Shown in pieces: positions 417 to 35,600 of a stretch of 64,000 nt of DNA; position 1 is the stretch's first letter, and each line of letters starts with the position of its first letter. Both the position numbers and the translations under genes were made by a program. The stretch covers positions 6,919,001 through 6,983,000 of the forward strand of contig NC_092680.1 in NCBI RefSeq assembly GCF_964355755.1. The letters run 5' to 3'. The notes under the pieces were generated by a model, which was given only the letters and a program-made list of their open reading frames with translations, was not told the DNA's origin and searched no databases. The DNA comes from Antedon mediterranea (lineage: Eukaryota; Echinodermata; Crinoidea; Comatulida; Antedonidae).

Positions 417-457
417 ATAAAACCATGGAGAAATAAGTTATTTCTCCATGATAAAAC
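417..457. repeat. 27-bp palindrome flanked by 7-bp direct repeats
   Basis: The core at 424-450 has perfect 13-bp arms, CATGGAGAAATAA and its reverse complement, around a single G. It is bounded on both sides by ATAAAAC (417-423 and 451-457), which looks like a target-site duplication. The termini, CATGGAG and CTCCATG, match those of three other palindromes in this window. I infer a very short mobile insertion. Confidence 0.7.
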
Positions 458-1681
458 ACAATGAACAAATGTGTTAGCAGTATAAAAGTAGAGTAGCTGC
501 CATTTTGGAATTGAGGCAACATTTATGGTGGACACTATTAGCTTATTTCAACCTGTATTGTTGTTTCAGGATGACAAAACCAGCAAGACTAACTGCAATA
601 ATGTAAACATTTCCTGAAATGGACCACTCAGTGACATTTCATTTATTAATTTTGCATTTTAAGAAAAACGTTGTCACCTAATAAAGTCACCTTAAATATA
701 GTCACCTTAAATATGTGTTAGGCCATTGATTTTAAAACATAAATTCCTTGTCTGTTTGACAAGGCAAGTATCTAAAAGAGGGGAAAATAATAGGAAATCA
801 TTTTTTTATAAAACATTGTAAAATTCTTAAAATTCGATTCTTATAATTTATTTATCGTCCAGTAATAATTTATTCAAATTTAGGGAATATTATGCAAAGA
901 TAAAGCCATTTATTTAGGAAATATTTATTTCTTTTTATTTGATATTCCAGTACCTGGTATATCACTCTCATACAATTAACATCATGATAGTAATCACTCT
1001 TTTTATTAATGTTTTTCATTTCACTCTACCCTCAGGGAAAATCGTTGATTGCCAATTTCATTAATAGTAATTCTCAATTGTCTGAAGGCTATGTGTGGAA
1101 GTGATATTATTTTATTATTTAGTATTAGTAACTGAAAAATGTTATATTTTATCTCATAAATCGACTTTATGGAAATTTTAATTGTTGAAACTGAAAGTTG
1201 ACAGTTTACAGTATGAACTTCCTTTTTGTTAACACAGAGGGAAGGACTATAAGGAAATGAAAGTGTATTGTATAAAACAATGGATGGTTATTTTTTAAGA
1301 AGTAAATTATATAAAGCTCCTAGTACTTGATTTGTTGATTTCATATCATGTACCATGGGTTACTTCTGTTCTATTGCATGATAAAGTTTTATAATCAATG
1401 GTTCTATTGTATGGCCAGGTTTTTTTTACTGCAATGTGACAAACTGATAAATAATTGGCGAATGAAAAGCAACTTGTAGAGTATGCTGTGTATTGCTATG
1501 CTTAACAGAGCAATATCTATTTGCATGATCTAGCCTTTGAAATTTGATTCAAGAATTTGATTCTAAAAGTTGTGGATTAATTGAACAAAAGTTTACTTTG
1601 GAACTGTAATGAAATATTGTAGAATTTATGCAAGTTAAATTATGTATAAGGCAGTTCTCAACCCAAGTGTGGCGTCTCCAA

Positions 1682-1740
1682 TAACGCTATATCCTCTTAA
1701 CCATATCTGTGACGGATATGCTTAGCAGGTTATAGCATTA
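1682..1740. other. Imperfect hairpin
   Basis: The arm TAACGCTATATCCTCTTAAC plus six bases (1682-1707) pairs with 1714-1740 at about 22 of 26 positions around a loop of about six bases. No direct repeat flanks it. It may be a decayed inverted-repeat element or a transcribed hairpin. At about 58 nt it is short for an animal microRNA precursor. Confidence 0.35.
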
Positions 1741-4700
1741 ATTGTTTGAGAAACTATGAATTTGGAAATGATGTACTAGTACACAAAGCAACAGATTTAG
1801 CAGATGGCCAATAAAACCATAAACAGAACTTACACATCAATATCCTAATTAGATACAGCGTGATTTAATAATTATATTCTTGATTTGTCAGTAGTCTATT
1901 GGAATATTTAGGCAGGACATACCAGACAACGTGTTTATGTTAAGTATATGTCTGAAAATTGCCAAAATATGCATGACATAAACATTACTATATTGTATAA
2001 TGATTGAATGCACAATGTAAACAAAACACAATGGATTAAAATTTCTATTGAATGCGTCAAATATGTATCCATTAAAAAAGAAAATATATTTGATTGAATA
2101 CTTTGATAACCATAGCAAGCCTGCTTATCAAGATTCATTATTTTATTAATTCATCTTTGTCAATTGCATTATTTGCATTTAAAATAGCATACAAATATGA
2201 TACACATCATGATACAAAGGGTAAAAAGACACCAAAAAACACCTTTTAAAATTTGAATTCATTTTCTGAAGTTGGAGGAACGTCTTGTAGAGAAAATATA
2301 AACTACTATATATTAAAAAAGAAAGTATTTCTTTCTACAATAGGTTATATCATTTAAAATCTACACTTCACCTTTTTAATCATACACTAGTTTCTTTTTG
2401 GGTCATTCAATTTGTTTACTTATATATTTGGTTTCGGTTCCTTGAGCAAAATTGTATTTACTGTACAGATTTTCTAATTTTGTTGCAGATTTTATTTGTA
2501 CGTTTTAGGCATTAACAAATTCTGTTTGCCAACTATGCTCTAGTTTTGATTCTCATGATTTAGTTGTTGACATTTATAGTGATGTTGTATTACTGGCAGA
2601 CCAGAGCAGCAGGAATCTCCCACAATGCCCTCTTTCCCTTTCTCTTACCACATTAATCTGAAATTGTTATACTATATATCTATATATGATGAACTATAGC
2701 GTTGTTCCACCATATCAATATTGAACTATATCATGGTCCAATTGCAGAAGATTCCAGGTTCGAATCATGGTTGGTAACTTTTTCATATCATAGATTTTAT
2801 TCACCCTTTTTAAATTAATTGATTTCCAGTACTGTATATTACTAGGCGGTTGGACTTTTCCATTATTAAATAATATTACTGATTTCTTATTTATACACAT
2901 TTTTCTATACCTACTACTGTAATTACTATGTTTTAAACCTACTGTATGTTTTTCTTCAACACTTATTGTAGGTGTATTTTACGTGAAAATGACACAATAC
3001 ATGGTTTGCTCTTCTAATTGTTATCATTAGAGGATGTGATGTAGAGATTATTGATCAAATATATTCTGTAGCGAACACATCTTTTGAAAAGTTTTCATCA
3101 ATTTGTACCTGGAATTACTTTGGGAATTAATTACGGTACTTATGTTTGATTCATTATTTCCTGGTCAGTACTTTAATGATGAAAATGTGAGTTGAATGTA
3201 TGGTTTGTTAATTGTTCTATACTACTATATCCTATTTGATTTGATTTTTGTATCATGTGTGATTGGAATATTTATTCCATCTTTTATTTCGGAATCTCTG
3301 GTCCATGGAAAGTAAAATTACATAAATAAAAATAAATAAGACTGTACTACTACTACTGTACTACTCATCTCAGGATGGCATTCCATGGAGAGCATCTTTG
3401 ACTTGATAAGACGTTGCCTATAATCATTGAGACTAAAACATTTTCACTTGTATTGAGTCTACACATCATGCCATATATCGATTTTCTTAACAATTCATAA
3501 AAAGAAGGAATTCTACATTATCCTGTTCCATTTCAACAGAAGCATTTTTGTGAAAATTGTTGTGCATGACATGAAGGCAAATAAATGTACCTTAGTGTAC
3601 CTGAAGCTATAGAATGCGCTATCTACAGTCTGGTCTGCTCCGCAGCAAAAATCATAGAACCATCTTTTCGCCTTCAACATTTGAGGTAGAATAGTGAATT
3701 GTCAATCTTTTAAACCCATTCAACACATTGTGTAGACCTATACTGTTTTTATCTTATGACACTGTATCTTTGACAAAAATTGGAAGAGGTGTTGAGGCAA
3801 ATTCTATGATACACTGTCACATGTAACCTGTATTATGTCATGGTTTAGGCTTATGACCTATGATACAGTTGTCACACATGAAAGACATGTTATTTTGTAT
3901 ATAATTTGCCAATGCACAAACTATAGATACAGTAGTCTGATATTAAATTCATGAATTACCTTTCCATCTAATTGATGTAAAAAATGTCTTACTCGGCTGT
4001 ATATATACAAATGTATATAGATCTATGATTTAAATTATTACTAATGCATGATACCACATTGATTTACAGGTATTGACATTATGTTTTGCATTAATGATAA
4101 ATTTTGATTGAACGGTTTTTTTTTACACTGTCCATAAATTTGACATTGGCCAAATGAATTAAATTAATCTATCTCTAAAGTAGCAGACTTATGGCTGTGA
4201 AATATTCCAATTTTAATGTGTCTATATCAATTATAAACAGAAAATTTTAAAACTTACTAAATATGCAATATTTTATCTACAAATTAGCTTTGTATTTAAT
4301 ATATTATTCCGTCTAAATCCACTTGTATTAAATGCTTTTCATACTTGATCTGTCTATCATTTTTTGACATAATAACGTCTTCTGGCAAATTGGCAAGTAG
4401 TATAATGTAATCTACGGTGCTGTGGTTCGCTTATATGCAGCCGCATGCATATGAATTTGACAATCGGCTCCTGCAATAGTCTAGTTAAATCAAAACTAAT
4501 TTATTTGAACCAAGCAGTAACATATTGGTATGCCGTTTGTAATATTTTTCAAGTTTAAACATTAAGTATATTTACACCAAGAACATTCCTTTCTCATAAA
4601 ATTAAACAAATTGATCTGCTGTGTTTGAAGAGGAATAATTTTGAAGGATATTTTTATCGCATTTGGTGAATGGAGAGAAATCTGGGTTGTTGTTTTTCCT

Positions 4701-4823
4701 GATTTCTCTTTGGTTAAGGTATATTATTATTTTTATATCATTTTATAATCATAATTGATTTTAATGTGTGTATTTATACTACTGTTGGAACATATTGATT
4801 TAATTTCAATTTTTATCTTAGTT

Positions 4824-4861
4824 GTTGCATCAGGGAAGAGTTAACTCTTCCCTGGTTGCAT
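4824..4861. repeat. 24-bp perfect palindrome flanked by 7-bp direct repeats
   Basis: The core at 4831-4854 is a perfect self-complementary 24-mer with half-site CAGGGAAGAGTT. It is flanked flush by GTTGCAT on both sides (4824-4830 and 4855-4861). The ends CAGGGA and TCCCTG match the other members of the palindrome set (see 417, 30793, 33121). Confidence 0.7.
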
Positions 4862-6030
4862 TAACATGTTGTCCAGCCTCTGTTGTGTACAGTTAACTTG
4901 AAAGTCATTAGATTAGATTAAATTTTAAATTCCTATATTACTGTACATTGAAATTCCTCATCAAACTATTTCCAACTTTAAGCATTGGTGGCGCTATTCA
5001 TTATTTTCTTATAATCAGAAAACCAGTCATTGAACATATGATTCACCATAAAGAATATTTAATATTATATTTTATTTATTGTTTTAAATTAGAACATGAT
5101 GAGGGAGTGGTCCCTAAATAAGGAATCGTCATTAAAACTAGGGAATTAATTCTTTATCTGAAATTTTTTTAATCAAACAAAAAATTGGTTGGTAATGTTG
5201 TATCATTCATTCATTAATGGAAAATTAATTCTATTTATTGTCATTTGCATATAAAATTTCCATAGAAAAAATTTAAAATTATATTTGTTCTGAGATATAC
5301 AAAAACAGATAAATAAAAAACAATTACAAAGTGTCACACACTTTCGTACGGTATACTGACAAGCATTCGGTGTCTAAAAAGCAAAATAAATGCTGTTACG
5401 AAACCTATTTGTTTGTACGAGAGATGATGGACTGGTGACGTCTGCCGACGTAACACCTCAAATACATTATACATAGGATGATGTATCCAGTACAAATAAA
5501 AAAAATGTTCTTTTAATTTAAATATACATTTTATTTTCTGTATAATGTTGTCTGTTATTACAACATTATTGTACTTATACTTTTATTATTTTTTTATTCA
5601 CTACAATAAATATTGTTTTGAGAAACATTAATATCCACAGCAGCTGTACTTACAATTTCAATTTCTAAATGTTTTTCCAGAAATCATAAGAATGATTATT
5701 TTTCCTGTTGTAAACATACAGATTAAACAGTAGGTACTAGTGTTTTTTGGGGGTTTTTTTTAGATGAAAATTATCTCTTATACAAATGTTGTGTTACATT
5801 TGCACAATTTCAATCTATCTACAAATGTTATTTTGAATCTTGTTAATTCTTATTTAAATGTGTACTTTTTAAGTAATATTTTTATCATTCTGTGGTATAA
5901 TAAATGTAGGATGTGAGCCCTCTATCATCATCTATCAAGATAGAATAAGCGATTGTCTGTCTTTCTCTATATAAAACATTCAAGAAGCTCCTTTGACATT
6001 TTAAATTTCAATGTCTTTCTATGTCCAGTA

Positions 6031-6196
6031 AAGCTCTGTTTGTACTATCAAACTTTATGTGACAAAAATGTGAAGTTCCCATATATGGACTCATATCACT
6101 ACCAATAATAATAATAATAATATTTGGGCATATCACTATATTTAGGCGCATCACACTTGTTTTGTCAAACTAGTTTGATAGTGTAGACATAGCTTA
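6031..6196. mobile_element. MITE, family A (AGCTCTG termini), full-length copy
   Basis: The left end AAGCTCTGTTTGTACTATCA and the right end, which reads TGATAGTGTAGACATAGCTT, are terminal inverted repeats. Internally there is the family signature of a TTTGTCAAA-type arm and GTGATATG / CATATATGG segments, interrupted by an (AAT)n run near 6103-6123. It is non-coding and non-autonomous. Other copies in this window lie at 12305, 27424, 49958 and 63902. The superfamily was not determined. Confidence 0.75.
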
Positions 6197-9000
6197 TTGA
6201 TTGTAAAGAACTTGCTGAATCATACCTTAAAGAACACTTATAGTTAGAAACATGTATAAACAATGTTATTTATATTTTATTTATTATTTATTTATTTTGT
6301 TTTTATAATAAAATACAATATTTTTTGTTTATTTCTTTATTTATTTATGTTTCAGACTAAAATGATTTATTTTATGCAAACAAAAAAATTGTTTTTGTTA
6401 GCCCCTATTTTTTTAAATCTTCTATCTTTTCATGTTATATTCTTTGGATCAGTAATTCTCATATTATGCTTTTCTTATTTCGCCATATATTAAAACTTAA
6501 TAACGATTACATTGAACTATAAATAAGGCTCTTTATACTAATTGACACCAATGAAAAATCCTTGGCATGTATTTAATACGTTTATTCTTTATAGGAAATT
6601 TAACTTGATTCACAAGATTCATCTAATATCCATTATGTTTAATAGGTCAGGTTATACATGGTTAGATTTATTATTTTTGAACAAAAAAGCATATCATTTT
6701 AGATCTTTTTAATGTCGTTCATTATGTTCAATTTTCTTATAAAAATAGATATTTTGATAGTGATATTACTTTAGTACTCCACTAAATAATTCCAGATAAA
6801 ATAAAACACATAAAAATATTGAAAATTTAGCTGATATGTTGTACTACTGTATATAATATGTCCGATATCATGAACAATTGTGTATACAGTGTCACACAGG
6901 TAACACCTGTTATCATAGGCTACAGTACTAACCTAGCCCTAACCCTAAATTGACATAACACCGGCGCAACGTGCAATACATTTGTGACCACTTTTTAAAT
7001 AATTTTTAAGAATATATTTTTCAGCATGGGTTACGTTTGCCTCCTTCCACCCAGGAGTATAAATGGGTACCCGGTTAGATCAAGACACAACTTTGCACTG
7101 ATTACTAGCTGCATTATGGGAGTATGTTTCCATACGTGTTTGATAATAAAAAAAATGATTGGTAACAGCGCTTAGAGGTTTTACAACATTAGGCACTATA
7201 TAAATCCAGGATATTATTAATATTATCTAATTTTATATATTAATAATAAATATATATACCAAAAATCATGAAAATGTTTGAATTTTGTAATTGTAAATGT
7301 AAATACTGCATAGAAATAGATTAGTCAATCAAAAAGTCTGGACCCTTGATATTATTATGTGTTCTTTCTCAGGGCCGTAGCCACCAGTACGGTTCGTAAG
7401 GCTTCAATCTGACCACTTTTTCACAGAGGCCTTTGACAACTCAGTGGCATGAAGAGAGATTGTTCCATTTTCTTGCAAAACTGTGCCACTTCTTGTGGCT
7501 ACATCACCATTTCTCTTGAAGTTACCATCTCTTTCTCTTCTTTATAGTTAATAACTGAGTTAAGATTATGTATTATGATTCAAGATTGTAAATACCTCAA
7601 AATCTATTAATAATAGATATTTTGTAAATAATACTTATATACTGTTGCAGGTTGCTCTTTCCTCCGTTTTATTAAATTTTATTTTTACAGTACTTAAGAA
7701 TGCTATTATATTTAAGTTAGGATTACTATTTTCTAATCAATAACAGTTTTTATTGATAATTTCTTGAAAGTTTATCTCTGTTTATCTACTCTACTTTTAA
7801 TAAAGAACCAATCAATTTTATATCTATTTCACATATCAGTTGATGGTTTTTTGTACATCTAAACTATTTGTTGTTTTTATTTTATAAATAGCAATTATTC
7901 TAGATTAATTTTTCATTAATTTTTCTTTCAATTCATAAAGTACAGAACGACCTTTTAGTTGTTTTTTTAATCTCACAGTCATGGGTATTTGATTTTAGTA
8001 TTCAATATGACTGTTGAAAACAAAATAATAAAAACATAATTATGAAGCTACAACGGTTTACAAAACTTGAACTCGCTATCAACAACAGATCTATTCTGTT
8101 GGAATAACTCCCAGGGTAAAACTAAAAGAACATTTATTTAAAGATTAATACAAATATTGAATTCTCTACCAAATCACATTTATTTTATTTTCTTGAATTT
8201 ATTTCAAACTAAAATCTTAGGCGTATATTTCTTTATTTTAAACACAAACACATTTTTCAGAGAGAAATAAAATAGAAAGTAAATAGAAATAGAATATTTT
8301 TCATGTAAATTATTGCATAAAGTCTTATTTTTCGTGTGGAATATGTAATAATTATGATTAGTGTGGAATTGTAGGCTTCCCACAATTGAATCTATCCATA
8401 CAAATAATTGTTCAAATTTGCATACATTTTTTAAACCGTAATATCCGCCATTGTAATGTATTTTTATTTTATAATTGAGATTATAAAGTCATTAGCACTG
8501 GGATTTTACAGTGATACGATTATTCACTCTAATTCTAAGTTATTAAGAGATCAGTTTTTTCAACATCATTTATGTGTGTGCCTACCACCACTTAAGTGTG
8601 TAGCAATTTAAGTTAGATATAGTAAACAAGAAATAAGTACAGCTAATGGTAATGTGTTGTGAAGTACCATCTGTGTTCTAATAGGATTGTTTTTGTTTTA
8701 CCGGTTATAGTACAGTGAATTATCATGTAGTGAGTTGAGTGATACATTCAGGTCGAACAGCATACTCATTTTTGTGGATTTAACATGTTAGACATAGTAC
8801 ACAGAAATTTAATTCCTACTCTACAGCATGATGCATTGAACTGAGAATAATACCTTTGTATGTTGGGTGTATACAACTTTAACTTAAAGAAGGTCACACA
8901 TAGACAGTAATACTGTATCACTGATATTTAGCTGACCGGATCAATCTTAATTCATTGCTAGCCCAACTGAGCATATCATAATTCTTTATGGCTCACTGCA
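6197..9000. other. AT-rich non-coding tract
   Basis: No gene is recognised. It contains poly-T and (TTTA)n-like runs, one probable dispersed repeat (7020-7205) and many short frames without coding character. It ends in the probable promoter and 5' leader region of the TNFAIP8-like gene. Confidence 0.45.
7020..7205 (+). repeat. Probable dispersed repeat fragment
   Basis: This segment is less AT-rich than its surroundings and carries CCCAGGAGTATAAATGGGTA and a tail resembling GCGCTTAGAG...GCACTATATAAATCC. From memory, similar strings recur in marine invertebrate genomes as SINE-like tails. I cannot verify that here, and no second copy is present in this window. Confidence 0.3.
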
Positions 9001-9301
9001 TCTTTCCCTACCAGGCAGATTTTTTAAAAACTTCACAATGATGAATATTCATTAGGCAGCAGGGTGTGTAGCTGCTAACACCAACAGTGAAGCTGTGGAT
9101 GACTTCCTGATTTGTGAGTGGTATACAAGCACAGTTCCGGGATCTTATTATCTACTCAATCTAGGCCATACACACTCGGTTACAATCCTCCAGGAAGTGT
9201 GGCTGTGTAGAATAATACCGTGCATTTACACTGTAACGTCTCTTTGGAAGTTTTTAGGGGAGTGAGAGAACTAACTCTGTGATTATAATTTCTGTCTCAC
9301 T

Positions 9302-9356
9302 ATGGGAGATGTAAATTGCAATGAAGATAACTCATCAGAGTCTGACAGTACCTGTG
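9302..9356 (+). CDS. TNFAIP8-like gene, candidate first coding exon
   Basis: The ATG at 9302 opens an 18-codon stretch, MGDVNCNEDNSSESDSTC, ending one base into a codon before the donor G|GTAGGC. Joined to the acceptor CTTTCAG|TGGCGG at 27621/27622, it keeps the frame and makes a junction reading C-V-A-E-A-G. An acidic, Ser-rich, short N-terminus split from the body by an intron matches vertebrate TNFAIP8. About 300 bp upstream is less AT-rich than the neighbourhood and could be leader or promoter. Alternative first exons are possible. Confidence 0.55.
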
Positions 9357-15300: not shown

Positions 15301-18300
15301 TGTCTCAATAATGTTTGTGAAAGTCCTATGAAATAGGTGTCAAAGGTCAAAATGACATGTCAATTGGACCTCGCTCGTTGTATGATAGAATGTGAGTATT
15401 GAGCAAACAAGAGAAAAATAGACATTATTTTGTCATAAATATTAATAATAACTGGTAAATATTTTTTTGGTTCTAAAAAAATGTTCACTTTATAATACTA
15501 GGATACCTGTAATATAAAATATGACCTCCATCTCGTCAGTGAACCTCCCACAACACGCTAAGTCTAAGGGCCTGTTTCTGCTGCATAAAAATAACTGGTT
15601 AAAATCGGTATGAATCAATTAATTTTCTTGGGAGCAGAAACAGGACAAATTTGTGGTAACGGGTTAAAAGGCAGCGCAAATTAACCGGTTAAAAACACAA
15701 ATTCAATTCGGTGTTAAAACGCCATTTAACCGGTTATCGCTGGGCAACTTTTAGCTGCAACACAAAATATTATTTGATTATTTGCTTCTGACCCCGAGTC
15801 AACTACACAACAGTAACGTTTGAAAAAACCGCCAGGAACAATTACATTTTGGGTAATTCTAACGATTTTTGTCAACGACCACCCATTGATTTAACCGGTT
15901 ATTTCGGAGTACAAATTGATATTTTAAATCCATTTTAAAATAAACGGTTACCGTATTTTCCGAAGTATAGGTCGAGACTTTGTGGGAAAATTTTAATTGT
16001 CGACTTATACTCCGACCATGCGATTTTTAAAAAAAAATCAGGCCGAAAAAATATGTTCAAAAGCCGTCAGCTGTCCAGGCCCAGCAAGGTCAGTGGCCTA
16101 TCATCAATCACTCACAGAAGTTTTCAATTTAATACCTACATTGTACAAAATAATACAACTCCAACAAATACTGGTCAATAAAATATTAATATATCACAAT
16201 GACTCATTTTGATGTTATTATTACGCTTTTAAGATAATTAAGAATAAATAGTTTTCTTTATGCTTCTTATTCACTCTCGCGAAAACATCGTAACACACAC
16301 CACAGACGTCGGAATGTCCATGCAGCATGTTTGTTATTGCGCGATATTTTCATCTATACACATGCGCAGTTTGTTTGTTTGTTTGTAATTACAATTACTG
16401 CGCATGTCTTCTATTCATAGAATAAATTCTCCTTAGTCGGGCGCGTGTACATTTACAGATAACACGATTTACAACTACTCGCCTGTACAATTAATAAGCC
16501 TCCTAACGGAAAACTCGTTTTAATTTATTCGAGTGACGCGAAAAACATCGCTGATGGCAAGTAACGCTACATCGCTGTCATTTATTATAGGCTGGTGAAG
16601 ACGGCGACGAAGTCGTCGTCATTACGTCCGTCCGATATTGATTAGGCCTACACTTTAATAATATAAACAAACAACCACATTTCATACATTTCTAGCCCTC
16701 TTTGAACTTTAAAGTAAGTTGTGTTATTAGCCGATTTTGGGGGTCGACTTATATTCAAGTCATACCAAAATCAACGCTATTCTAGGCCAAAGTTGGGGGT
16801 CCGGAAAATACGGTAATTGTTATGCAGCAGAAACAGACCTTAAGATACTTTTTGATCTTACATTTTCCAATTATTCAAGGATGTAGCAAAATTCAAAATT
16901 GTACAGTAGTAGATAGAACATTTTGTTTAGTTCAGCACTTTAAGTTAAGTTAGATTACGTTACATTAAACACTTTAGATGCTAGCTTCTCAGCTGTTTTA
17001 AAGATGTATTGTCCCACAAAAACATGAAAAATGAAGATTAATTAAATCAGACTTTGAATATGTTATTTTGTAGTTTTAAGAAAGTTAATCACTTCCATAG
17101 AATAAAAAAATTAAAAAAAAATGTTTTCACTTACAAAATGACAAAATAAATGGTTAAATTCAACCAAAAACCCATTGGCTGGCAGCCAATTTGACCATTT
17201 TTTGCTTAAAATTACAGTTTTTTCTGGTAAATACATTTTTTTTCAAAGGGGATAACTATTATGTTACATTAAAATGGCATATTCAACAAAAATTTTGTTA
17301 AGAATTATTTTTTTCAGGGGGACAATACATCTTTAAGAAATGCTTTGGAGAAAGTTGAAAAGGTGAAAGAAAATGTAATATGTGGTCAATTCATTTTTAC
17401 ATCCCAGAAAAATGAATCAGTAAATGGGTCAATTTGTACATTTCTATTTAGCATTTCTTTGTATGTTAATTCACTAGTGTAAGATTAGATCAATGGTTTA
17501 CAGAAATCTGTCAACAGAGAATCATTTTTAATCTGTTGTCACATTATGAAATTCACTGAAAAGAATATCTGCTTATTGTTCATAATTGATGTTTCCATTT
17601 TTATTTGATATTACTGTGAGCTAGAAAATGTAGAGGGTATTAAAAACTATATGGCAATGGTCTTGCCGATCCTAGGTCTGTGTCCTACTTTTAAATGCCC
17701 TTGGGCAATACAACTCTTTTTTTTTTTCTGTTTTGTGCCGAGGTTATATATAATATTGTTCACTCTTATAGTTCTGATGATTTTCCATTTGATAAACTGT
17801 ACTGTGCTTTTCATTTTTTCATGTTCTCAGCAGGTGCTCAACACACATGATATAACATGTGTTACTTTACTGATGATAATGTTATTTCAATTATTTTATA
17901 TCCGGTGATTAAAGTACAATCTTAATAGCAGTGGTAGGCATACTTTTAACTTAATAACATTATATCACAAATACAGTTTAACCATTTGATAAGGAATGAA
18001 ACAGATATTGATTGATCTTATGTAAACTATTGCGAATAATAACATGTGAATTGTTCAAGATAAAATAAAAATGGATTAACAATTACATTTCATACGCTAA
18101 AAAGTCAACTTGTTGTGCAAGGTCTATAAATGATGAAGCAGCTTTTTGAATGGCTTAGCTTCCTGGCCTATCATTTGTCAATTATTTACATACTATATAG
18201 GTGTGTTATAAAACAAATAATGAATGGAGAGACATGGAAAGAATATTTCATTTTAGGAAAAATTGACTGCTTAATTTTTATTTGAAACATTCTCACAATC

Positions 18301-21300: not shown

Positions 21301-24300
21301 TTTGTATTTTAAATGAAAATAAAACAAAGCAATATATTTATAAAATGCATTTCATTGGTTAGAAGTACATCCTATATTAATTATACATCCTTATTAAACA
21401 CTTGGTTACGTTTTTCCCCGAAACCAAACTTTCTGACAGTTTTCACTAAACAGAATTTGAATAAGCTCTAAATTCATATACTTAGAGATTTAATGGATTA
21501 ATTTTATCTATAAGCATTAGCCTTTCATTCCATCATCAACGCCTAAACAAGTGGGATTAAGGGCTGATTTGTCGCTATCTCCCAGTAGAAATCATATGGT
21601 CTTTTAAAAGTACGATAGTAGCTTCAAACAGATTGGCAGGTGGTTTTTTCTGTAGCACATTGAATGAAGAAACTTTTCGTTTTCTATGAATTTTAAATCA
21701 TGTTCTGGTATCATGCGCATTCTCAAAAGATTTGGTATATTTTTCGTGTCCAGTTAATATATATTTTAAAAAAATACTATTTAAAATCTTCTGACTATCA
21801 GACATTTTGGAAAAACTCAGGGACAGATCCATTAGTGTAGTGGTAGCTAGCAGGGCGTGCTCCTCATTTTGACAGCTAAAATTAAATTAAGAACTACTTT
21901 TTAGTATCTATTTATCTATTACCATTATATTTTAGCGCTCCTGGTTCAAGCACTGCACATGAAGACTTGGTGTTCAGTATTGGAAAAGTTGTATTACTGA
22001 ATTTGAAATTGAACCTGCCAAGAAAGAACACAGTACACGTGAAATTTGTCACATAAACTGGTGATTTTGAATGTTTGTAATAATAAAAAATAAAATAAAT
22101 AGTAATAAATAAATCTCAATGCATTCCAATAACAGTTTTTTTGCAAGATATTCACAATTTCCTGATCACTTTTGGTATTGGTAAATAAGTTTTGAATGAG
22201 TGTGCTTATTTCTAGCATGTGAGCTAACGTCCACATTGATTAATAGCTGATTGGATAATTGATTAACTGTCAGTCAGGTGAGATAAAACCTTATTGAGTT
22301 TCTCTCTCTACTGAAAAAAACCCAAAATAACAGTTCTTTGTGAAACCTGTTCCGATAGTTATTTATAAGTAAAGATTGCATTTCAGTGTAATTAGTTCCC
22401 TTGGGTAGTGGTTGTTAAAATGACGTCATTGTTATACCCACAACACATTTTTTTAGGCGGAAATGCAACTATATTGTGAAGTCTTGCAATCCTTGCAAAT
22501 TACATTCTAATACTAAATGTGTTCTTGTGAACCCATGTTTGCTGGCAATAAACTGCCTTATCAAAAGTTTTCAGTGTGAAACCAAATCAAAATTAACATT
22601 GAAAATTCAACCGCATTGACATTTAATTTATAGTCATTCTTGTGAAATAACTATACATTAAACTAACAGCACATTTTGAAACACTGTATACATAGTATCA
22701 AGTTTTAATGTTAGTGGAAATATTAAACAAGTTTTGTGTACAACAGGGATTGACTTGTTCGCATTCAGACTTCAATCACTCCTACAAAGATATCCTTAGG
22801 TGTACCATAAAACTATTATATAAATAGATCCTTGTCATTTGATTGGAGGATTATGGGTCATGTGATATTCAATAAATACTCCATTGAACTCATATGACAT
22901 TAAGACTGCATTGCCTTTATACCGGTATACGCAAGTGCAAACATTGTGTTCATTCATGCTCATTCATTCTTTATTACCGTATATTTCGGTGTATAAGTCG
23001 CACTTTTGACACGCAAATTTGACCTCTAAATTAAGGGTGCGTCTTATACACCGAACATAAATGCCTCACCACACAGATTGTACATAGGCCTAGGCTATCG
23101 TCACCTCGTTTGCTAGGCCTGAGTAGGCTAGGCCTAGCTAAAGTAACTAACTAACGTAACGGCAACCTGCTTCTGCCTAGTTTTCAAGGCATTTTAGCAT
23201 GATGTTATACTAAAAATATGATGAAAAGATTTGTTCATTATGGCGATAAAATTTCATTTGTAAACGTTTACGTACGATGGAATAGTATTTATTTATACAG
23301 TAGTTATACGCACGATCGCCGTACTCCTAGCGCAAGCCCTTCTTGGCGGCCACATGTACGGTATTCGACTAGTATATTCTCCAGGTGATTATAGCATGGA
23401 CCTAGCGTACACACTTCTCGGATACATAGATTCTAATCGAATACGATTGTCCGTGAAAACGTCCGCCCTCTCGAAATGATCGAGCGAGGCTAGCCCACAT
23501 ATACGTGTTACACACATGGTCATGCACTCGATATTGCGGCTGTTGAGGCTGGGCGCGGCCGAGCCTAGGTAAGAAAAAACCTAAATAAAGGACGCCGTTG
23601 CAGATATAACAAAATATATTATTACAATAATATTGATTACAATTTAAAAAAACATTGTTTTGATGAAATATAAGGTGCGTCTTATACACCGACGATATAA
23701 AAAATACCGATATTTTACTCTCAGTTAGGGGTGCGTCTTATACACAGGTGCGACTTATACACCGAAATATACGGTATATGCAATCCAGACCTTCAAATGA
23801 CAAGGATCTAGTTGTATATTCATGCAATAGAACAAATATTTTTATACAGTGAGAAATGTTCTATTTTTACCTTATTTGTACCATTGCACTCATAAACATT
23901 ATTTTCTGTATTCTACACTACGAAAAATGAAATTTTTTTACTGATCTTTATCCACAACGTAATCCTTCTTCTGTTGGTACTCATTTTGATATTCGTCGCT
24001 ACAGAACTGAATCTTCTTTTCAATCATATATCCCACGTGTTACCAAAATTTGGAATAACTTACCCAGTGAAATCCGCAACTTAAATATTTCTGTTAGTTC
24101 TTTTAAAACCAAATTACTTAATTATCTCAATATTTATTTTTTAAATAATTTTGATATTGAAAATGTGTGTAGTTGGTCGCTTTCTTGTCGATGCTTTTAT
24201 TGTAGAACGTAATTTATTTATTTTTCTCTGTTCTGGGTTGACCAACTAGCATAGGTGTTTAGCACCTGTTTGGTCTTTCCGTGCCTCCTTTTATAATTGT

Positions 24301-27300
24301 TTTGTCTTATGTTTATGTTTTTAAAGATACATTCAGAATTGTTAGGCTCTATTCAAATTATGTATTACTGGTAATGATATTACTAAAGACTCGCTATAAT
24401 TGCACAATGTTGTAGCATATACCATAGAGATATATAGTGAACTATTATCTCTATGCATAGACCTACAGAACTATATCTGTATTCATAACTATATACTTTA
24501 ATGTTTAAATCAATATTCTTGTATAATAACATTAATAATATTTTTAGATATCTTTTGTAAGATCTCTAAATTAAATTGCATATTTAGTAAAAGTGTGAAA
24601 TACAATTCATTTTAAATTTAGAATAAACAAAGACAACCTGTTGGCAATACAGGATGTCAAGAGACATTCAGGAAAACCTTGCAGATACTTCCTGTGCCGA
24701 ACCCTATTGCTTTACTTCTAATACCTTCCTGGTTTTGCGGACAGTACACATCAATTTAGTAGGCCTAGTAGCAGGCTCAATGAGCGCTCACTTGCTACAC
24801 CCAGGGGCCCAGAGCTTACAGGGGCACTGAGCAGCACCCAGAGGAAAAAACAGGGATTAAAAATGTTGAAAAATTCCTCCAGCGTTGAAGGGCCACCTTG
24901 GGTTCTTAAACCAGGGGCCTCAGTCCTATGTGTTAGGCCACTGCCTAGTAGCCAACGGGCATGTCTTCTTTTATTGACTATGTCGGTCATATTTTTATAT
25001 AGCAGTTTCCTACCATCAATTTATCTTTTTTTTATTGGCTTGGATGGTCATCTTTTTTTATATAGCAGTTATCTACCAATTTTTAACAATGTATATTTTT
25101 CAAGGGGTGAAGGTTTGTCAAAAGAATCAAAACCAAAACAGGATGTTCACACTATTTCTATTTATGTTGTGGTATTATACTGTACATAAATATAGAAATG
25201 AAAAATAAGAAATATGGCTAAATAATTTACAGTGGATATGGATAGCCCAAGCTAAACAGCTACAGCTAAAATGAAAATATGAAACTACTTTTAGATATCA
25301 ATATTTGACGGACTGTTAATGTTACTGTAGCTCTCTTCCATTTAAACAATCCTGAATCCCCTAATGACTATAATGTGTGCTGTGCTATGAATATCATATA
25401 ATATATCATACCAATAATAATCAAATATAGAAAGCACACTGGCCCTATTTACACTGAGTCTGTAACTTAAATTATCCTCAAACTATAACATAAATAATAA
25501 TAAAATAAAAATATAATATTTTTAAGACAAAACTATTTAAAATTTGTATTCGCTTTGCAGATTTTCTAAGTTTGATACGCTTTCACATATTATTATTATT
25601 ATTATAGCATTATCGTTGATACCATGTTAGTCTGATAAAATGTATGGAATAAATTTCATTCTATTCAATAAATTATTCATGATTTTGTGATGTTAACTGA
25701 TCTATAAATAGAAATCACATTATTTATTAGCCTGAGGTAATTCTTAGAAAACATTATATTTTAATCATGTCCAACTTACACGAACAAAGAAATTGGATGA
25801 TCTGTTTTGAGGTCATTAAATAACAGAAAAATTATTCTATATCATGAATACAAGTGGAATATAACAGAACAAAGGCTACTATATAGATATAAAGTGCTGA
25901 AAGATATGCTGAAAAGTGCACATATTATTATGAATAACAATTTGTCTGCAGACAAATTATGATGATTATTAAATGATGCAAATGATGAGATGAGTTAATA
26001 CCAAATGAAATCTTTAGTTCCATACAGCTTGCTTTTAAATTTCTATTTAAGATTAATTTCTCAATTAAATAATACTATATTAAAAAACAGTTGTTTAAAC
26101 AGATATTCATTGTGTAAATGTTTAAATTGATAAATTACTGTCTGGCCTTATAAAAAAAGAAATAGATGTATGTACAGTAATAATAGGTTTACATATGTTG
26201 TGATAATACTGTAGAATAATATAAAGGTTTTATTTTGATTTTTCCCATCACTGTACCATCTTGTTGTACATGAACAAAATATTTATCATTATAGATTTCT
26301 TTTTTTTAATGAATGATCTATTCTGGTCATATATTTTAAATTGTTACATGTATAATAATATTTTTTTTTTATTCAACTGTCATTTATGATTATTGCTTAT
26401 TGTCTCTATTGTTTACATATATATTTACTTATTGTTATTGTTTTTATTGTAATTTTATTTATTTATTTATTTATTCCAATTTTTAATTGTTACATAGGAC
26501 ATCACATTTTAAAGCTTTGCTTATAGTGATGCCCGAATCAATCAATCAATATATAACTTTTGCTTATAACCATGTACATTTGTAGGTCGTTGCCAATATA
26601 CAGTAATCTTCCTAAACACTATCTGCTACTTTTAATACTTACAATTATTATGTTTTCATCTTTTCCATTTATTGTAAACCTCTAATTAAACTTTTCAGTA
26701 TTTTATTATTCAACTTCTGTTCCCAATAATAGTCAATATAAACAATTAATTTTTATTATTATCATTACTGTAAATAATCATTGTATATATTTTATAGTTA
26801 TATTGGTTTTTTTTTTTTTTGGTTTTTTTTTGTCTTTAAAAATCTACTGTAATATTATACCTTATTGTGGTTACCGTTATAACAAATGTACGTTTGATTG
26901 AATAAAGTTCACATATATATGTTCCCATTGTCAGGTGGGATGTTCCACTAATTTTTTTTCTTTTCTATTGTCCCCACTTTGTAAGGAAAGAGCTAATGTC
27001 AATTTATCCAGGTAAAAAAATAGACTACCAACACCATTGTTGGTTTGTGTAGTTTATGTGTAGAAACTGACCATTTAGGGCCCTCGATAAAACATTAGGC
27101 CTAAACATTGAATATCAGTGACAAAGGTAAATACAGGGAAACTTGGCTTTTGACAAACAAAATATTAATGAAAAAACCGTATTATAGTAATGGGGATGAA
27201 AAAAAAATACTGTTCACATGAAGAAAAAAAATACATTATTCTCGGATTGAATAAAATCGGGCAATTGTGAAGTCTCACAGCTGTGTGGCGTCTGAAAAAT

Positions 27301-28205: not shown

Positions 28206-28728
28206 ATTGATGGTGTTTTTCCATAATTTTCATTTATCAGTTATGAAACATTACATAAAGCAATCTGTATGAAATATGTAGGAAAAACCACTCAAGAATA
28301 AGCTATCGTCATTATGCTTCCATTGGTAATGTAAAGACTAGGGACAAAGATAGTTTGAATAATTTTATATTGAATACAGCTATTTTTATTATTGAAAGGT
28401 ATTTTCAATTTGGGTTTAAAGTGTATTCATTTTTAGATACAATTTGTTAAAAGCATTACAAATACTTTTTGTCTGTAACAGTTGGCAACAGTTGTTTATG
28501 TCTGAAATCAAAAATATGTTCCAGTCCTATGAAGGTTTTATTTACACATAATACAAATTTATTCAAATTTATAAACATTTGTTGAATGCAGACTAATGTA
28601 TGTGTTTGAGATGGAAGGAGAATAAAGGAAATAATGATTTTATGACATATAGCGATAAAGATATTGATGTCAATTATAACATTATGAAACCTATCCTACC
28701 AACTATCCAAAATGTGAATTTTATCAAC

Positions 28729-28748
28729 TGTGTGTGTGTGTGTGTGTG
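28729..28748. repeat. (TG)n microsatellite
   Basis: About ten TG units lie downstream of the TNFAIP8-like stop codon. It is an uninterrupted simple repeat. Confidence 0.9.
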
Positions 28749-30792
28749 CAGGGGGCTTATTAAGTATCTCATGCATAATTGCATTGTCCCAATGAGAATG
28801 TCCCATGTGAGATTGAGATGCCCTATAGGGATGTCCAATGCCCGATTGAGATACCAACCTCATGACAATCTCTAGGATATTATTATATCGGATTACATCA
28901 TGCTGCTTTTTGTATGGTTCTCATACTTGCTACAATAAAATATCCATTAAAAAAAATGTGTGTCTGTAATGTAAGGTGCTGTTATGTGGGTTGGTTAATA
29001 CAAAAAATATTAAAGATATTAACAACAAAATTGTTGAAAATACATTAACAAGGGTTGTATACTTCAGCAATAATACTATGATGTTTTGTGTAAATGTTGT
29101 TAAAATTAACGAGGATGATACTACTAGCTGTATTAGTAGAATATGTACCATCATTTTCAAAGTATCTGTATCTATTTTGATAAGGTCAGCAACATTAAAA
29201 AAATAGACATATTCATATCAGACAGTACCTTAAATATTTCTAAATCGCATCAGAATAAGTTTTTCAACTCACTTTCACAAAAGAATAGTATATGCAATTG
29301 TATTAATATCATTGTTATAGTTCTCTAATAGATTTTTCATAATACATTTAATATTATCAACAGTGTACGAATCAATTATTATTATCATTTTATATCTTTC
29401 TTGCAATATGGAATGGTGCTAGAAAATATGTGGTACGGAACTTCTTCTTCTTCTTCCCTTATTAGAATTGCTTTAGAAAAGCTTTCGTTTTGGACACTGT
29501 AGCCTAAGAAGATGGGTTATTTAATCAGAGCATGTGCATAAACCCAGTTTACACCGTTTGATTCATTATTGTGGCTGTATTGCCCTTGCCTAAAGGCCTA
29601 CTGTCAAACGCAAGCTCACTAATATCAGTTGCACTATATCTACATATATATATTTTGTTTTACAAACACGAAGGATTTTTTTTAAATACTGATATATTTG
29701 TTCTGTTATATGTGAATACACAAATGTTAAAAATAAAAACTTTTTTATAAAATATATTTTGCCATTTAATACAAATAAGATTGTACGGTAGTTATAAAAT
29801 AACTTTTTTTGTAGTAGATAGAATATTATTGTTTATTTAATATTCACTTTGTTGATTATGGTATAAAATTCACTCATTATATACACATGATGAAGTTTTA
29901 AATCATATCAGAGATCATAGCAAAAATCAATACCAGTTAAAATAATAAAATAACTATAGTTAAATGATGTATAATTATGATTCATTAGATTTTTTTAATT
30001 GCAGTAAATTTGAATTCTAACACCCAAATAGTTTAATTTAATTTTTCACACTAAATATTAATTTTAGAAATAGCAAAGAAAAGATATTTTAAGGCAATGC
30101 TGTATTATGGTTTTTTATTTTTGAATGAAATGAAATGGATTTTTATGAATTGAAAATGGGGAGAATATTTTCATAGTTGAAAGAACTGTTGTATTCAATG
30201 AAGCAGAACTAGGTTGAATAGAACTAAAACGAATAAAAAATATTCTCACCATTCAACAAATACAAAAGAACATTCATTATTTCTTTTAAAAAATACCTAC
30301 TATTCTGAGTAAACTTTTATTCAAATACAATCCTAAAATATTGGCTCAACAGGTAGTTTTCCCATCCTACCATGTTGCATAACAATTTCAAATGTTAGCA
30401 TGCAATAGTATCTTCAATCATTAAAATGGAAGAAAATAATGCATGGCATGTGATTCTAAATATATTCAAACGCCAAGGACACATTTTAAAATATAATACA
30501 GGTTTTTTTCGTGTTTACTGCTATATTTTTATATTTTGAAATGTGTTTCATCTTAAAATCGCACTATGAATACACTTTCAGTTGCAGTTTTCGATTTAGT
30601 ATATAAATATAATACTTTTATATTAAAAAGACGGCATTTTTCATTATTTAAAAGGTGAACCTCTGCTCAACAAATGTTTGCCTCATTATACATATATTTA
30701 TTGAATATCTAGTTGCCAATTGAGTTTTTGCTTTCTTTTCTGTTAAAATATTAATTGAACACTGTGCAATTTTTATGTATTTAGCTTACTAT

Positions 30793-30833
30793 ATTATACC
30801 AGGGAGATGTAAAATAAATCTCCCTGATTATAC
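30793..30833. repeat. 27-bp palindrome flanked by 7-bp direct repeats, next to a 407-bp element
   Basis: The core at 30800-30826 has arms CAGGGAGAT / ATCTCCCTG around a 9-base loop and is flanked flush by ATTATAC (30793-30799 and 30827-30833). The right-hand ATTATAC is also the left target repeat of the element at 30834-31240, which has a third ATTATAC at its far side. Confidence 0.7.
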
Positions 30834-31240
30834 CAAAGAACTTATAACACAAGAATCTCCTGTTCTTCAATTTGCATTCAAAACACAGTATCGGAAGTAC
30901 AGGGTTAAAAGGTCAAACTGGGCGACGCCATTTCACAGCATGGAGCAGCGCCCCCTCCAAACTAGGAAGTCAATTACTCTATCCCCTAGAGTATTAGCAG
31001 ATCCCCTCTATGATTTTGACTTTCTAATTTGATGCGGGCGCCCTACTCCTCAGTCAATTACTCTATCCCCCTAGAGCATTAGCAGATCCCCTCTATGATT
31101 TTGACTTTCTAATTTGATGCGGGCGCCCTACTCCATGGCTCACAATGGCGCCACCCATAGCTCTATTCTATCCCACAATGCCTTTCGAAATTGTTACGCG
31201 CTTCGGACGAACAGGAGATTCTTGTGTTATAAGTTCTTTG
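30834..31240. mobile_element. 407-bp inverted-repeat element with 7-bp target duplication
   Basis: The left end CAAAGAACTTATAACACAAG continues GAATCTCCTGTTC, and the right end is its reverse complement. ATTATAC flanks it at 30827-30833 and 31241-31247. The interior has an 84-bp tandem duplication, with GTCAATTACTCTATCCC at about 30968 and 31052. It is GC-richer than its surroundings. CA..TG ends with a 7-bp target match the short palindromes. A hAT-like origin with a 7-8 bp duplication is possible. Confidence 0.75.
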
Positions 31241-32650
31241 ATTATACTCAATATAGACATCAATGTGTATAAATGTGTGTTATCACTAACTCATGTAGAA
31301 AGTTAGAATTGTAACACAGCATACTAAACCTATTTTTCATACTCAATTTTAATTTTAAAATGACAAAACATATCATATGTTATAGTTGTACCTTTTTTTT
31401 TGTCATATAGAAATGTTATGTACTATGTGTTATGTATCACAAGATTTAATTAAAAAAAATATCAGAACACAATTGAATGTCTTTTGTGAATTGTGTGAAA
31501 TTGTTATAGTGCCTACATAGTTGCTTTAGTGACGTGAGTTTGCGGCCAACTCTGGTAGTAGAACAAGTCATACATGTCTGGTTTGATGTTGCTGCTGCTT
31601 CAGATTTTCCAATTATGATGGCTATCTTTTAAAAAACATAATATAGGGCCACTATAATATTTACAGACATAAGATTTAAAATAAGGCCAGGTGCGGGCAA
31701 AACATTTCTATTAGTTTCATAATTTTGTTGATATTATCTGTGTTACACGAGCTTGTTGAAAATTAGCACTTTCTTATCAGTAGGGGATAATTCAAATTAA
31801 ACAGTAAAATCTCTATTCTTTGTACATAAATGTTAAATAGAGAGTTGCATTTTTAAAAAACTATGAAAAATAAACGGTGTGGTACAAAATGTTATCAGAT
31901 GACTAAATATAGGTAATATAACTTAAATTTTACATAAAAAAATTTTAAGAAAAAAAGTGTTCCTGGTTCCAATTTTGTATTGGACCATTTTAAGGGAAAT
32001 TCATGTTTTTTCTACTTGATTTCTATTACAATTATTTGATTTATGTACAATTAACCAGATATTATTTTTAAAAGTCATGCCTGTACCAGCTGAGCTTTAA
32101 AAATTATTTTATACAACCTTTATTTGCGCCCTCTATAATCATTATTGCTATTTTATCACGTCTACCATACCAAATTGGACTTCAGACATTCTATTTTTCT
32201 ACTGCGTCTGGTTCCGTATTAAATTTAGGACTTAGGACTGTTTATTGGGACCTATTTTTACCTGAATATAAAAATGCAGATTATACATAATTTGTGTCTA
32301 CCATTATATTATCTTACTTATCGTTTTCTTCTAATAAATTTCAGTAACTTTCTCTGCTGCTGCTCGAAAAATGTTTTCGAAGTATTAGTCTTACGTGGTC
32401 CAGGCAATATCGAATAGTATGTCATCTTTTCCATCTCCACATCGTTCAAAGTGATTAAAATTATCTAAACAATAATGGAAGTAAATTAAAATAAACTTGT
32501 ATTTACTTTTATTTAAAAAAAGATATACTGTTAAGTAATATTTTGATATAATATAAAAACAACCATGTGGATAATATATCGAACATGTTCGAGGTCCATT
32601 TTGGTATACCAAATACTCCTCGTCGAATCACAGTAAAAAAAAGAAGGAAG

Positions 32651-32679
32651 ATGGCTTTGATGTTTACTGAAACAAAAAG
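32651..32679 (+). CDS. COMMD10 exon 1
   Basis: The exon encodes MALMFTETK plus two bases of a Ser codon completed by exon 2, with donor AAAAAG|GTATTG. It is the first ATG in frame, and the joined start [18 protein letters not shown] aligns well with the family N-terminus. Confidence 0.8.
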
Positions 32680-35600
32680 GTATTGCTAAGTAAATAACAT
32701 TTCAAGGAGCTTGCTAATTAGGAATGTAATACAATTAATTCTTGGAAGCGCCGCCAGTACTATATAGCTTACTAGGAATGGAGGCGGGGAGCTACACGAA
32801 TAGATTTCATTCTAGGCTAGGCCTAGGCAAGCCTTTACATATACATGATGAGACGCCACTTTAGCGCGCCCGGAATGATTCGGCCCTGAGATGTTTCGAT
32901 CTTGGACGTTTCGGCCCATGTGTGGTGCATTGATATTCAGTTATTTATAAATAAAGCCTGCCTATTTCCATTTCTATCATTTTAAATAATATTGATGTAT
33001 CCTATTCTATGATTTAGGCATAGCTAGCCTAGCCTAGCTTAGGCTTGTAAAATTGTTGTATGTATTAATTTATAGTACTAGGGCCTAGCCTATTAGTAGG
33101 CCCTAGCCTAACTAGTTAGGCCTAGGCCATGGAGTAAAGAAATTTACTCCATGCCTAGGCCTATGTTGATTTGTGAAAAACATTTTTAACTACCATTTTA
33201 AAATTTTTTTCTAGTGCATATAAAACATTCCAACATTATCATGAACATTTTATTTTTTTTCCAGATCTAATCATATAATTTTTTTACATACTTTCATATT
33301 GAACCTTTTCATTGCATTTTTAATTGTATATTCCTGTATTTAGTGGCTAAGCCTTACAGTATATAGTATAGAACCCAAGCTCACTGTTTCTTCTTTACAG
33401 TATAAAAAAGGCTGTAGAACTAATCAATGGCATTGATGCTTCCAAGTTTCCACGGTTACTCTCAAGAATTTTACAGAAACTTCATTTAAAGGTAGGTTAG
33501 ATGATTAAATGAATTGAATGAAATTTATATTTCTTGACAGACCACAAGGTAGGCACCCCGGCGCTAGTTCCGTTTCGCACCTGTCGTTTATTTCGACTCA
33601 AAATTGGTTAAGTAACTTTATCGTGAGTACCACACCTTAGAATTAGGCCTCAAAAATATTTTTACAAAGGAGATCACACAAAAAGTAAAAAATAAATCCT
33701 TTAAATTGATGAATTTACAGACGTGTTTCTCGCACATCGGTTCGTGAATTTCGCATACTCAATGTTCAATGTTGTTGTTTCTATGGAGCGCCAAAAGAGC
33801 AATCATAATAGAGGGCTAAAAACTCAATAAATTGCGTATATTTAATGCATTTATTGGTGAAAATTACGTTCAATTTTATCATATTTTGTCAATGTCAATG
33901 CAACAAAAATATTACTGTTGATACTGTACATGGTTTTTGCAGGAACTTTTAGGAATGAAAATCGACAAATTCATCATCATATTACATGTACTGTAGGGGT
34001 ATACCTGATCTAAATAATATTCCTCTTAGTCTTACTATAGTCTTAGGTCTAGGGTTGATTGCTATTTGAAAACAGCAAATTATTAGCAGTAAAATGTTAC
34101 AGCATTTTTATTGACAAAATATATTAAAATTAAACGTATATTTCAATAATAAATGCATTAAAAGAAGACGCATTCCACTGAGTTTTTAACCATCTATTGT
34201 TGTTGCTCTTTTGGCGCTCCATAGAAACGAAAATATTGAACTTCGAGTATGCTAAATTCGCGAACGGTATGCGAGAAACATGTCTGTAAAATCATCAATA
34301 TAAGGATTTATTAGTTACTTTTTATGTGATTCTTCTTCATAAAAGTACTTATGAGGCCCAATTTTAAGGTGTGGTATTCACAATAAGTTGCTTAACAATT
34401 TGGAGTCAAAAGGAAGTCGAAATAAAAACAGGTGCGAAACGGAACTAGCGCCGGCACCCCAATAGACCCTTAGGATGTGTAGCCTACACCTTGGCTGCAA
34501 GTTGCATGTTGTTTTTTGTTGCACTAATTTTTCTTGTACACAATATTCACAGGATGAAAAGCCCTTTACTGTTGAGGAGGAAGAAATGTTAGAGAATGCA
34601 TTAGTTCTGGAGGCAGTCAATCTACAGCTGGTATTACAGACCACAGCGTTTATTTTACAACAGGTAGATTTGTCGCAACATTTTTGATAATAATCAGCTG
34701 TAATTATCTTTTTTTACTGTAATATTTACTGTACATCTACAGTACTGATAAAGTCGCCCTTGTTTGTTTGTTTGTTTTATTAGTTTCTCCACACATTTTA
34801 AAATAAAAGATAAAAATTACAAATTGCAAAAAGCCCTTAAAGTGCCATAAAACAAATTCCACTTCTCACACAGCATTTTTGGCCACTGCACTTTTCATTT
34901 GGACCTATAGACGTCATTCGTCAACGTTGAGGGAGTTTGAATCTGTTCTCAAATCTTGTCACAAAGAGCACATCATAATATCCAAATTTGTATTGTTTTG
35001 CTAATGATCGTTGCTTTACTTTTCAGGCTGCATACCACCTTACAAAACCTGCAGTACTTTCACAGCAATTGTCAAACTTAGGTCTAGAAAAGGATAAGGT
35101 AATTGCTTTATGATGTTAGAATACAGGATTTTAATTGTTGACAAGACAACTTTCTAGTAAAGTTATTGTATTGATAACAACATACATTTGCTAAGATATA
35201 TTCACCTTTCAATAGCATGATATAGGATAGGCCTGCTGTAGAACTATCAGTGACACCAAGTCAGATATTTTGCGCTACCCGGATGTAATTGTACTGAAAG
35301 CTCACTACATTGAGAAAATAATTTGCTCATTCTGCCCCTAGCTGTCCGAGCACTCTCGGTAGTTTAGGAGGTATGAATGCCAGGCTAGTAATCTTGAGGT
35401 CATGGGTTCGAATCCCACTCGAGAATTACCTGTATTATTAATTGAATTAATTTTAATAAGTAATAATTATTCCTTCATATCATTCCTTGACATACTATTC
35501 AATGTATATCTGTTTGTCGTTACTCTTTTAATAGGTTTCAGTTTTTGTGAAAGCTTGGACATCAGGTGGAAAAAATGTAGTTGATAAATTGAAACAAAGT

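Follow-up and report, generated by a model that had tools for sequence, protein, structure and literature searches.

The Drosophila P transposase generates 17-nt extensions (PMC7776569), and P excision leaves 17-nt tails at the donor site (PMC2895639). Excision junctions described from Drosophila melanogaster (Chan, Yu and McVey 2010, PMC2895639) have a layout in which a left stub of the terminal inverted repeat (TIR) is followed by an inverted right stub, both enclosed by the target-site duplication (TSD). In Table 1 of that study, 14 isolates carry the junction TSD-CATGATGAAATAAC(AT)GTTATTTCATCATG-TSD, and the reported junctions include 2-nt microhomology joins near the tail tips, small insertions and trimmed forms. 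Galileo, a P-superfamily transposon of Drosophila, is described as having a P-type transposase, mostly 7-bp and rarely 8-bp TSDs, and GT...AC as the outer target bases (PMC4168063). Zebrafish Pdre2/THAP9 provides a P-type transposase outside insects, with ends that start in CAT and excision shown in cells (PMC10983969). Here we describe short palindromes with the layout of the fly junctions in a window of 64,000 nt (C11:6919001-6983000, the whole stretch that was analysed) from the genome of the feather star Antedon mediterranea, which spans 354 Mb in 18 contigs.

We consider these palindromes very probably, at a rough probability of 0.92, to be excision footprints of P-superfamily DNA transposons, formed when the tails left by a staggered cut are joined. 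The case is built from sequence comparison, and the mechanism is already known from flies. The first-pass annotation of the window knew of no described family that matched. For the architecture this was wrong, since PMC2895639 (Table 1) lists junctions of this layout left by P excision in Drosophila. The two sets nonetheless differ. The fly junctions have 8-bp TSDs, come from one element, were induced experimentally in Rad51-deficient flies and in many cases were trimmed further (PMC2895639), whereas the crinoid scars have 7-bp TSDs, belong to several end families, are seen in a genome assembly and keep stubs of up to 19-20 nt. Galileo differs in its very long TIRs and its other termini, and the main text of its description does not contain the word 'footprint' (PMC4168063). 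Pdre2 differs in having a 13-bp TIR, CATACCTGTCAAC, and an 8-bp TSD, and zfTHAP9 in S2 cells is reported to have given larger flanking deletions (PMC10983969).

Four near-perfect palindromes had been noted in the first-pass annotation, and all four are present where it placed them, with an exact 7-bp direct repeat flush on both sides. Footprint 1 (417..457) consists of the 27-bp palindrome CATGGAGAAATAAGTTATTTCTCCATG at 424-450 between ATAAAAC repeats at 417-423 and 451-457. Footprint 2 (4824..4861) is a perfect palindrome of 24 bp, CAGGGAAGAGTTAACTCTTCCCTG, at 4831-4854 between GTTGCAT repeats, footprint 3 (30793..30833) is the 27-bp CAGGGAGATGTAAAATAAATCTCCCTG at 30800-30826 between ATTATAC repeats, and footprint 4 (33121..33160) is the 26-bp CATGGAGTAAAGAAATTTACTCCATG at 33128-33153 between CCTAGGC repeats. 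To these we add an older, decayed member, footprint 5 (24416..24462), in which the 33-bp CATAGAGATATATAGTGAACTATTATCTCTATG at 24423-24455 lies between CATATAC and CATAGAC. The flush repeat is exact at four of the five window sites and has one mismatch at this fifth. The common terminal CAKGGA that had been proposed stands in that the ends are shared, but the range of ends is wider, as CATAG also occurs. Relatives of several sites were found elsewhere. The 27-mer of footprint 3 recurs on contig C3 (two places, one common flank) and on C7, and palindromes related to footprint 4, CATGGAGTAAAG, have exact 7-bp repeats in loci L025 and L028.

The palindromes are far above chance. A scan of the window that was blind to motif, accepting any palindrome with outer arms of at least 7 and a length of at most 60 bp between exact direct repeats, returned for 7-bp repeats the four noted sites and nothing else. 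Repeats of 4, 5, 6, 8, 9 and 10 bp gave 25, 4, 1, 0, 1 and 0 matches; the lone 6-bp match is unrelated, and the lone 9-bp match falls inside footprint 4. Fifty Markov surrogates gave a mean of 0.1 per window at this setting. At a stricter setting, 574 order-4 Markov surrogates gave means of 0.005 for exact repeats and 0.14 with at most one mismatch, and the window itself, with at most one mismatch, yielded eight matches: the five family members, one in a satellite and two that overlap in AT-rich DNA. Matches with CANRG ends numbered five in the window versus one across all 574 surrogates. This sequence, which we take to be a P-element end motif, served only as a search handle, because the ends of Pdre2 (CATAC) and of an element described below, L067 (CTGAG), do not fit it.

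Across the genome, the excess over control that the first-pass proposal implied is found for each of three terminal heptamers. The pattern CATGGAG-N0-20-CTCCATG occurs 2227 times versus 10 in the reversed control, the corresponding CAGGGAG ends 1076 times versus 3, and CATAGAG ends 569 times versus 44, for a combined 3,872 versus 57, counts that include some copies carried by larger repeats. One such case concerns a frequent end, CAGGGAGATGTAAAATAAATTTATAAATTAGTTTA, which makes up 19 of the 100 matches listed and lies on seven contigs. The one copy that was read (L074:46-90, contig C2) is itself a 45-bp footprint-like palindrome, the first 35 bases of which account for those 19 matches, and is apparently a scar carried inside a dispersed repeat, so raw pattern counts include repeat copies. 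An unbiased sample of 200 kb (20 x 10 kb) contained three exact 7-bp cases, all three with family-type ends, and 20 matches with at most one mismatch, among them a fourth with a family-type end. Footprint 5's end family is represented there with exact 7-bp repeats (L006:5845-5874 and L023:4554-4574). At about one footprint per 50 kb, the genome would hold about 7,000, a crude extrapolation from four.

Flanks were surveyed for the first 46 of 50 CATGGAG palindromes listed, all on contig C1. The flush 7-bp repeat is exact in 33 and has one mismatch in five, and one further palindrome has an exact 8-bp repeat. The 43 loci of these palindromes form 37 flank groups, so most, though not all, are separate events.

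One of the two first-pass readings, that the palindromes are terminal remnants of a collapsed larger element, held up: we read them as P-superfamily excision scars, and an intact parent of one family exists. This element (L071; C11:13871856-13878179) is 6,324 bp long, has identical 32-bp TIRs, CATGGAGGTATAAAAATAGAAGGAGAGAGCTC, that start with CATGGAGGTATAAAAAT, and carries the exact TSD CGGTATC on both sides. Its open reading frame (ORF) matches PF21787, the P-type RNase H family, at 4.9e-24, above the curated cut-off. In this single 582-aa ORF, with introns not modelled, THAP and GTP-binding domains were not found, and zf-AD fell below cut-off. Genome-wide, PF21787 is matched 35 times, each time above the curated cut-off; E is <1e-15 for 17 of the matches, and 11 of these 17 span >100 of the 137 positions. 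The parents came from this genome search. A tblastn comparison of 120 P transposases with the window and the sampled loci returned nothing. Two copies of another P family (L067 and L068), each of 5.55 kb and 99.5% identical, have the 7-bp TSDs CGGACAC and GCTAGCT and apparently moved recently. Their ends, CTGAGACAAC, differ from the footprint ends. The L067 element encodes the GTP-binding domain PF21788. Both copies also have a second ORF of 323 aa on the opposite strand, and the C11 element is similarly arranged with one of 342 aa; no Pfam family was matched by these second ORFs. An end scan of two more transposase loci (L069 and L070) gave no convincing ends.

Two parents with footprint-type ends were read, the autonomous C11 element and a non-autonomous element of 1,098 bp on contig C1 (L073), whose ends, CAGGGAGATGTAAAATAA, are those of footprint 3 and whose TSD has one mismatch. 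Within this genome, palindrome arms correspond to the outer TIR of a P element for CATGGAGGTATAAAAAT and, by way of this non-autonomous element, for the ends of footprint 3. A scan of the sampled loci for full elements with CANRG ends and a 7-bp TSD (at most one mismatch) returned a 407-bp element in the window, described below, and one 966-bp pair with a single TSD mismatch in L001, seen also in L002, which overlaps it.

Footprints with C11 ends consist of the outermost nucleotides of the element joined head to head. The first 17 nt of the C11 TIR occur 209 times, and the 56 rows available with letters represent 38 distinct sequences, of which two are intact TIRs, 25 have a visible right arm and 11 do not. 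In the 25 with a right arm, 17, 18, 19 and 20 nt of the TIR are kept in 3, 16, 2 and 4 cases, and none keeps >20 nt, while the TIR itself runs to 32. This limit fits a staggered cut like the 17-nt cut of the fly enzyme and may indicate one of about 19 nt here. A stagger of exactly 17 nt is not established, and the last one or two retained bases are ambiguous because they may derive from either side or from an insertion. An exact 34-mer made of 17+17 nt of the C11 TIR end occurs on C2 and C3. As proof of a 17-nt stagger the 34-bp class is weakened: the 46 surveyed palindromes include four 34-mers, of which three (in L001, L039 and L043) lie within copies of a single repeat, and the fourth is next to one of these in L039.

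The centres of the palindromes suggest how the tails might be joined. One end pair is found with many centres, from 18 to 34 bp and longer within one end family. In footprint 1's family, the commonest joins are CATGGAGAAATAAGTTATTTCTCCATG itself (12 of 91 rows kept from 100 matches listed, with 11 different right flanks) and CATGGAGAAATAAGTTAACTTATTTCTCCATG (nine rows at five sites, both strands listed). The latter is compatible with two 17-nt stubs that have TA in common, an analogue of two fly P joins in PMC2895639 Table 1, that at TA (5 isolates) and the more common one at AT (14 isolates). For footprint 3, a possible reading is a join between stubs of 18 and 9 nt.

These features are consistent with a model in which a P-superfamily transposon would insert and duplicate 7 bp of target, as seen at intact elements here. 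To account for the retained lengths, the transposase would excise it with a long stagger, cutting one strand at the junction and the other roughly 17-20 nt inside the TIR. Two chromosome ends would result, each with a 3' single-stranded tail of nearly identical terminal sequence. Because the two tails are nearly identical, annealing would be possible only at self-complementary stretches, and the centres suggest that the cell often joins them at short stretches of this kind, with trimming or small insertions. The joined product would read, in order, TSD, left TIR stub, right TIR stub in inverted orientation, TSD. Differences in the arms from site to site would reflect the presumed activity of several P families whose TIRs differ but whose outermost bases are similar.

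In one orientation, the 38 heptamers of the surveyed CATGGAG palindromes have the consensus GTTAAAC, with G in 18 of 38 and the final C in 20 of 38. Summing both orientations gives GTTWAAC, which is symmetric by construction. The consensus resembles GTANTAC reported for Galileo (PMC4168063). Empty sites with a single heptamer, which the first-pass annotation had looked to, were found once: L066 carries the 31-bp CAGGGAGTTGTTATCTAATAACAACTCCCTG plus the 7-bp GTCAAAC where L065 and L043 have one heptamer, with both sides matching. These are three copies of one larger repeat and represent one locus. L066 also has four exact GTCAAAC copies between stacked footprints. In the window, ATTATAC occurs three times (30793-30799, 30827-30833 and 31241-31247), around footprint 3 and the non-autonomous inverted-repeat element of 407 bp at 30834..31240. 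That element has the ends CAAAGAACTTATAACACAAGAATCT and the same target heptamer as footprint 3, and its 7-bp TSD and end motif suggest that it belongs to the P superfamily. Repeated insertion into an existing TSD would be the simplest reading of such stacking.

Other explanations can be weighed against this body of evidence. Palindromes arising by chance or from base composition might be expected in a window of 30.6% G+C, and in the 200-kb sample the bare count for 7-bp repeats is not raised (3, compared with 9 at 6 bp and 4 at 8 bp). However, 0.005 exact cases are expected where four are found, and this figure and the genome counts against reversed controls refute chance, to which we give practically no weight. 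The other first-pass reading was of transposing units below the size of any miniature inverted-repeat transposable element (MITE), so that the 24-34 bp palindromes would themselves move and duplicate 7 bp. Perfect TSDs, common ends, high copy number and the exact recurrence of one 27-mer with different flanks all speak for such units. Yet the internal sequence is not constant, and the wide variety of centres for one end pair points to end joining rather than to a moving unit. In addition, the arms coincide with the outermost stretch of a TIR that is longer and whose intact parent exists, and a favoured annealing point would also give exact recurrences. The proposal is therefore unsupported, and we regard it as highly improbable.

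The footprints might instead derive from another superfamily with 7-bp TSDs, such as hAT, Dada, Mutator or similar. Some hAT elements also have CAGGG ends, and no parent was located for footprints 2, 4 and 5. Against this, a parent element whose ends match carries the coding sequence of a P-type transposase domain, and the ~17-20 nt retained at each end are in keeping with the long stagger of P elements, which leaves this option improbable. Somewhat less remote, though still unlikely, is that the palindromes are extreme internal deletions from interrupted gap repair and not products of joined cut tails. In wild-type flies, most P repair products are reported to reflect incomplete synthesis followed by end joining (PMC2895639), and palindromes of 35-64 bp do exist in the crinoid. 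Since synthesis in gap repair proceeds inward from the ends, the retained TIR should often exceed 20 nt, but within the limits of a 35-base view none of the 25 distinct long-arm C11-family footprints does. KolobokP, known from three echinoderm classes, was considered separately and set aside, its solo-repeat TSDs being mainly 3-5 bp (PMC9587614).

Several observations weigh against interpreting the palindromes as joined excision tails. Seven of the 46 surveyed CATGGAG palindromes lack a flush 7- or 8-bp repeat. Palindromes of 35-64 bp number 439 versus 7 in the control, so there is no strict length ceiling; among those listed, some have insertions, some are stacked and some are repeat copies. 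The retained-length count draws on 56 of the 209 occurrences, preselected for at least 17 nt and with some sites on both strands; in longer stubs, the far arm could lie beyond its view of 35 bases. One of the 11 armless sequences matches 21 nt (the others fewer), and a second repeated sequence (12 rows) with the same first 18 nt as the C11 TIR blurs the 18-nt class. Footprint 1's family behaves similarly, with apparent matches of 19-21 nt in 10 of the 69 that have a visible arm, measured against an unverified end sequence; L076 is a bare end of this family, and its complete parent was not found. An intact autonomous parent was found for none of the five window sites, and footprints 2, 4 and 5 have no located parent of any kind. 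In the two transposase ORFs no THAP domain was found, and only one of them has the GTP-binding domain. The empty site is paralogous, not orthologous, and all of the evidence comes from one genome. Finally, the fly table contains 20 isolates joined at long microhomologies, with little of the TIR or none of it retained (PMC2895639 Table 1).

The host group, the abundance and scale across multiple families, and the stacking at one heptamer look undescribed; this is supported solely by the literature searches made, in which no published description of mass footprints of this kind was found. A more specific combination is tentative and in our view less likely than not: that the crinoid P stagger is ~19 nt rather than 17, that excision followed by end joining is frequent enough for footprints to exceed the 35 transposase matches (non-autonomous copies not counted) by about two orders of magnitude, and that P elements re-use their own target heptamers, with several footprints stacking at one site. 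In that case the genome would serve as an extensive natural archive of germline end joining at a single, defined type of break.

Other features were noted in the window. One ORF encodes a TNFAIP8-like protein 100% identical to an Antedon mediterranea protein over 173 residues, and TNFAIP8 was the sole family matched in a Pfam scan of ten window ORFs. A tandem array at 38238-40311 contains 53 copies of a 39-bp unit that is open in several frames, so the longest window ORFs are repeat artefacts. The satellite at 40348-42468 has units of 196 and 391 bp, most of which start with CAGGGAAATTTTC and several of which end with GAAAAATCCCTG, along with a TACTATAGTA-like spacer; it looks like an inverted-repeat element amplified in tandem. 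Two elements have perfect 20-bp terminal repeats: one of 893 bp at 33560-34452 with the 8-bp repeat GGCACCCC, and one of 788 bp at 22982-23769 with ends TATTTCGGTGTATAAGTCGC and flanks TACCGTA and TACGGTA. An inverted-repeat element flanked by TTAA, with ends AGATGTATTGTCCC, is present in two copies at 17002-17332 and 51643-51929.

For annotators, these palindromes serve as a warning that a short palindrome flanked by a TSD may be a scar instead of an element. If our interpretation of them as P excision footprints is true, a single animal genome preserves a legible record of many excisions within one transposon superfamily. Such scars would let the stagger of a non-fly P transposase, its target choice and echinoderm germline end joining be estimated from sequence alone.

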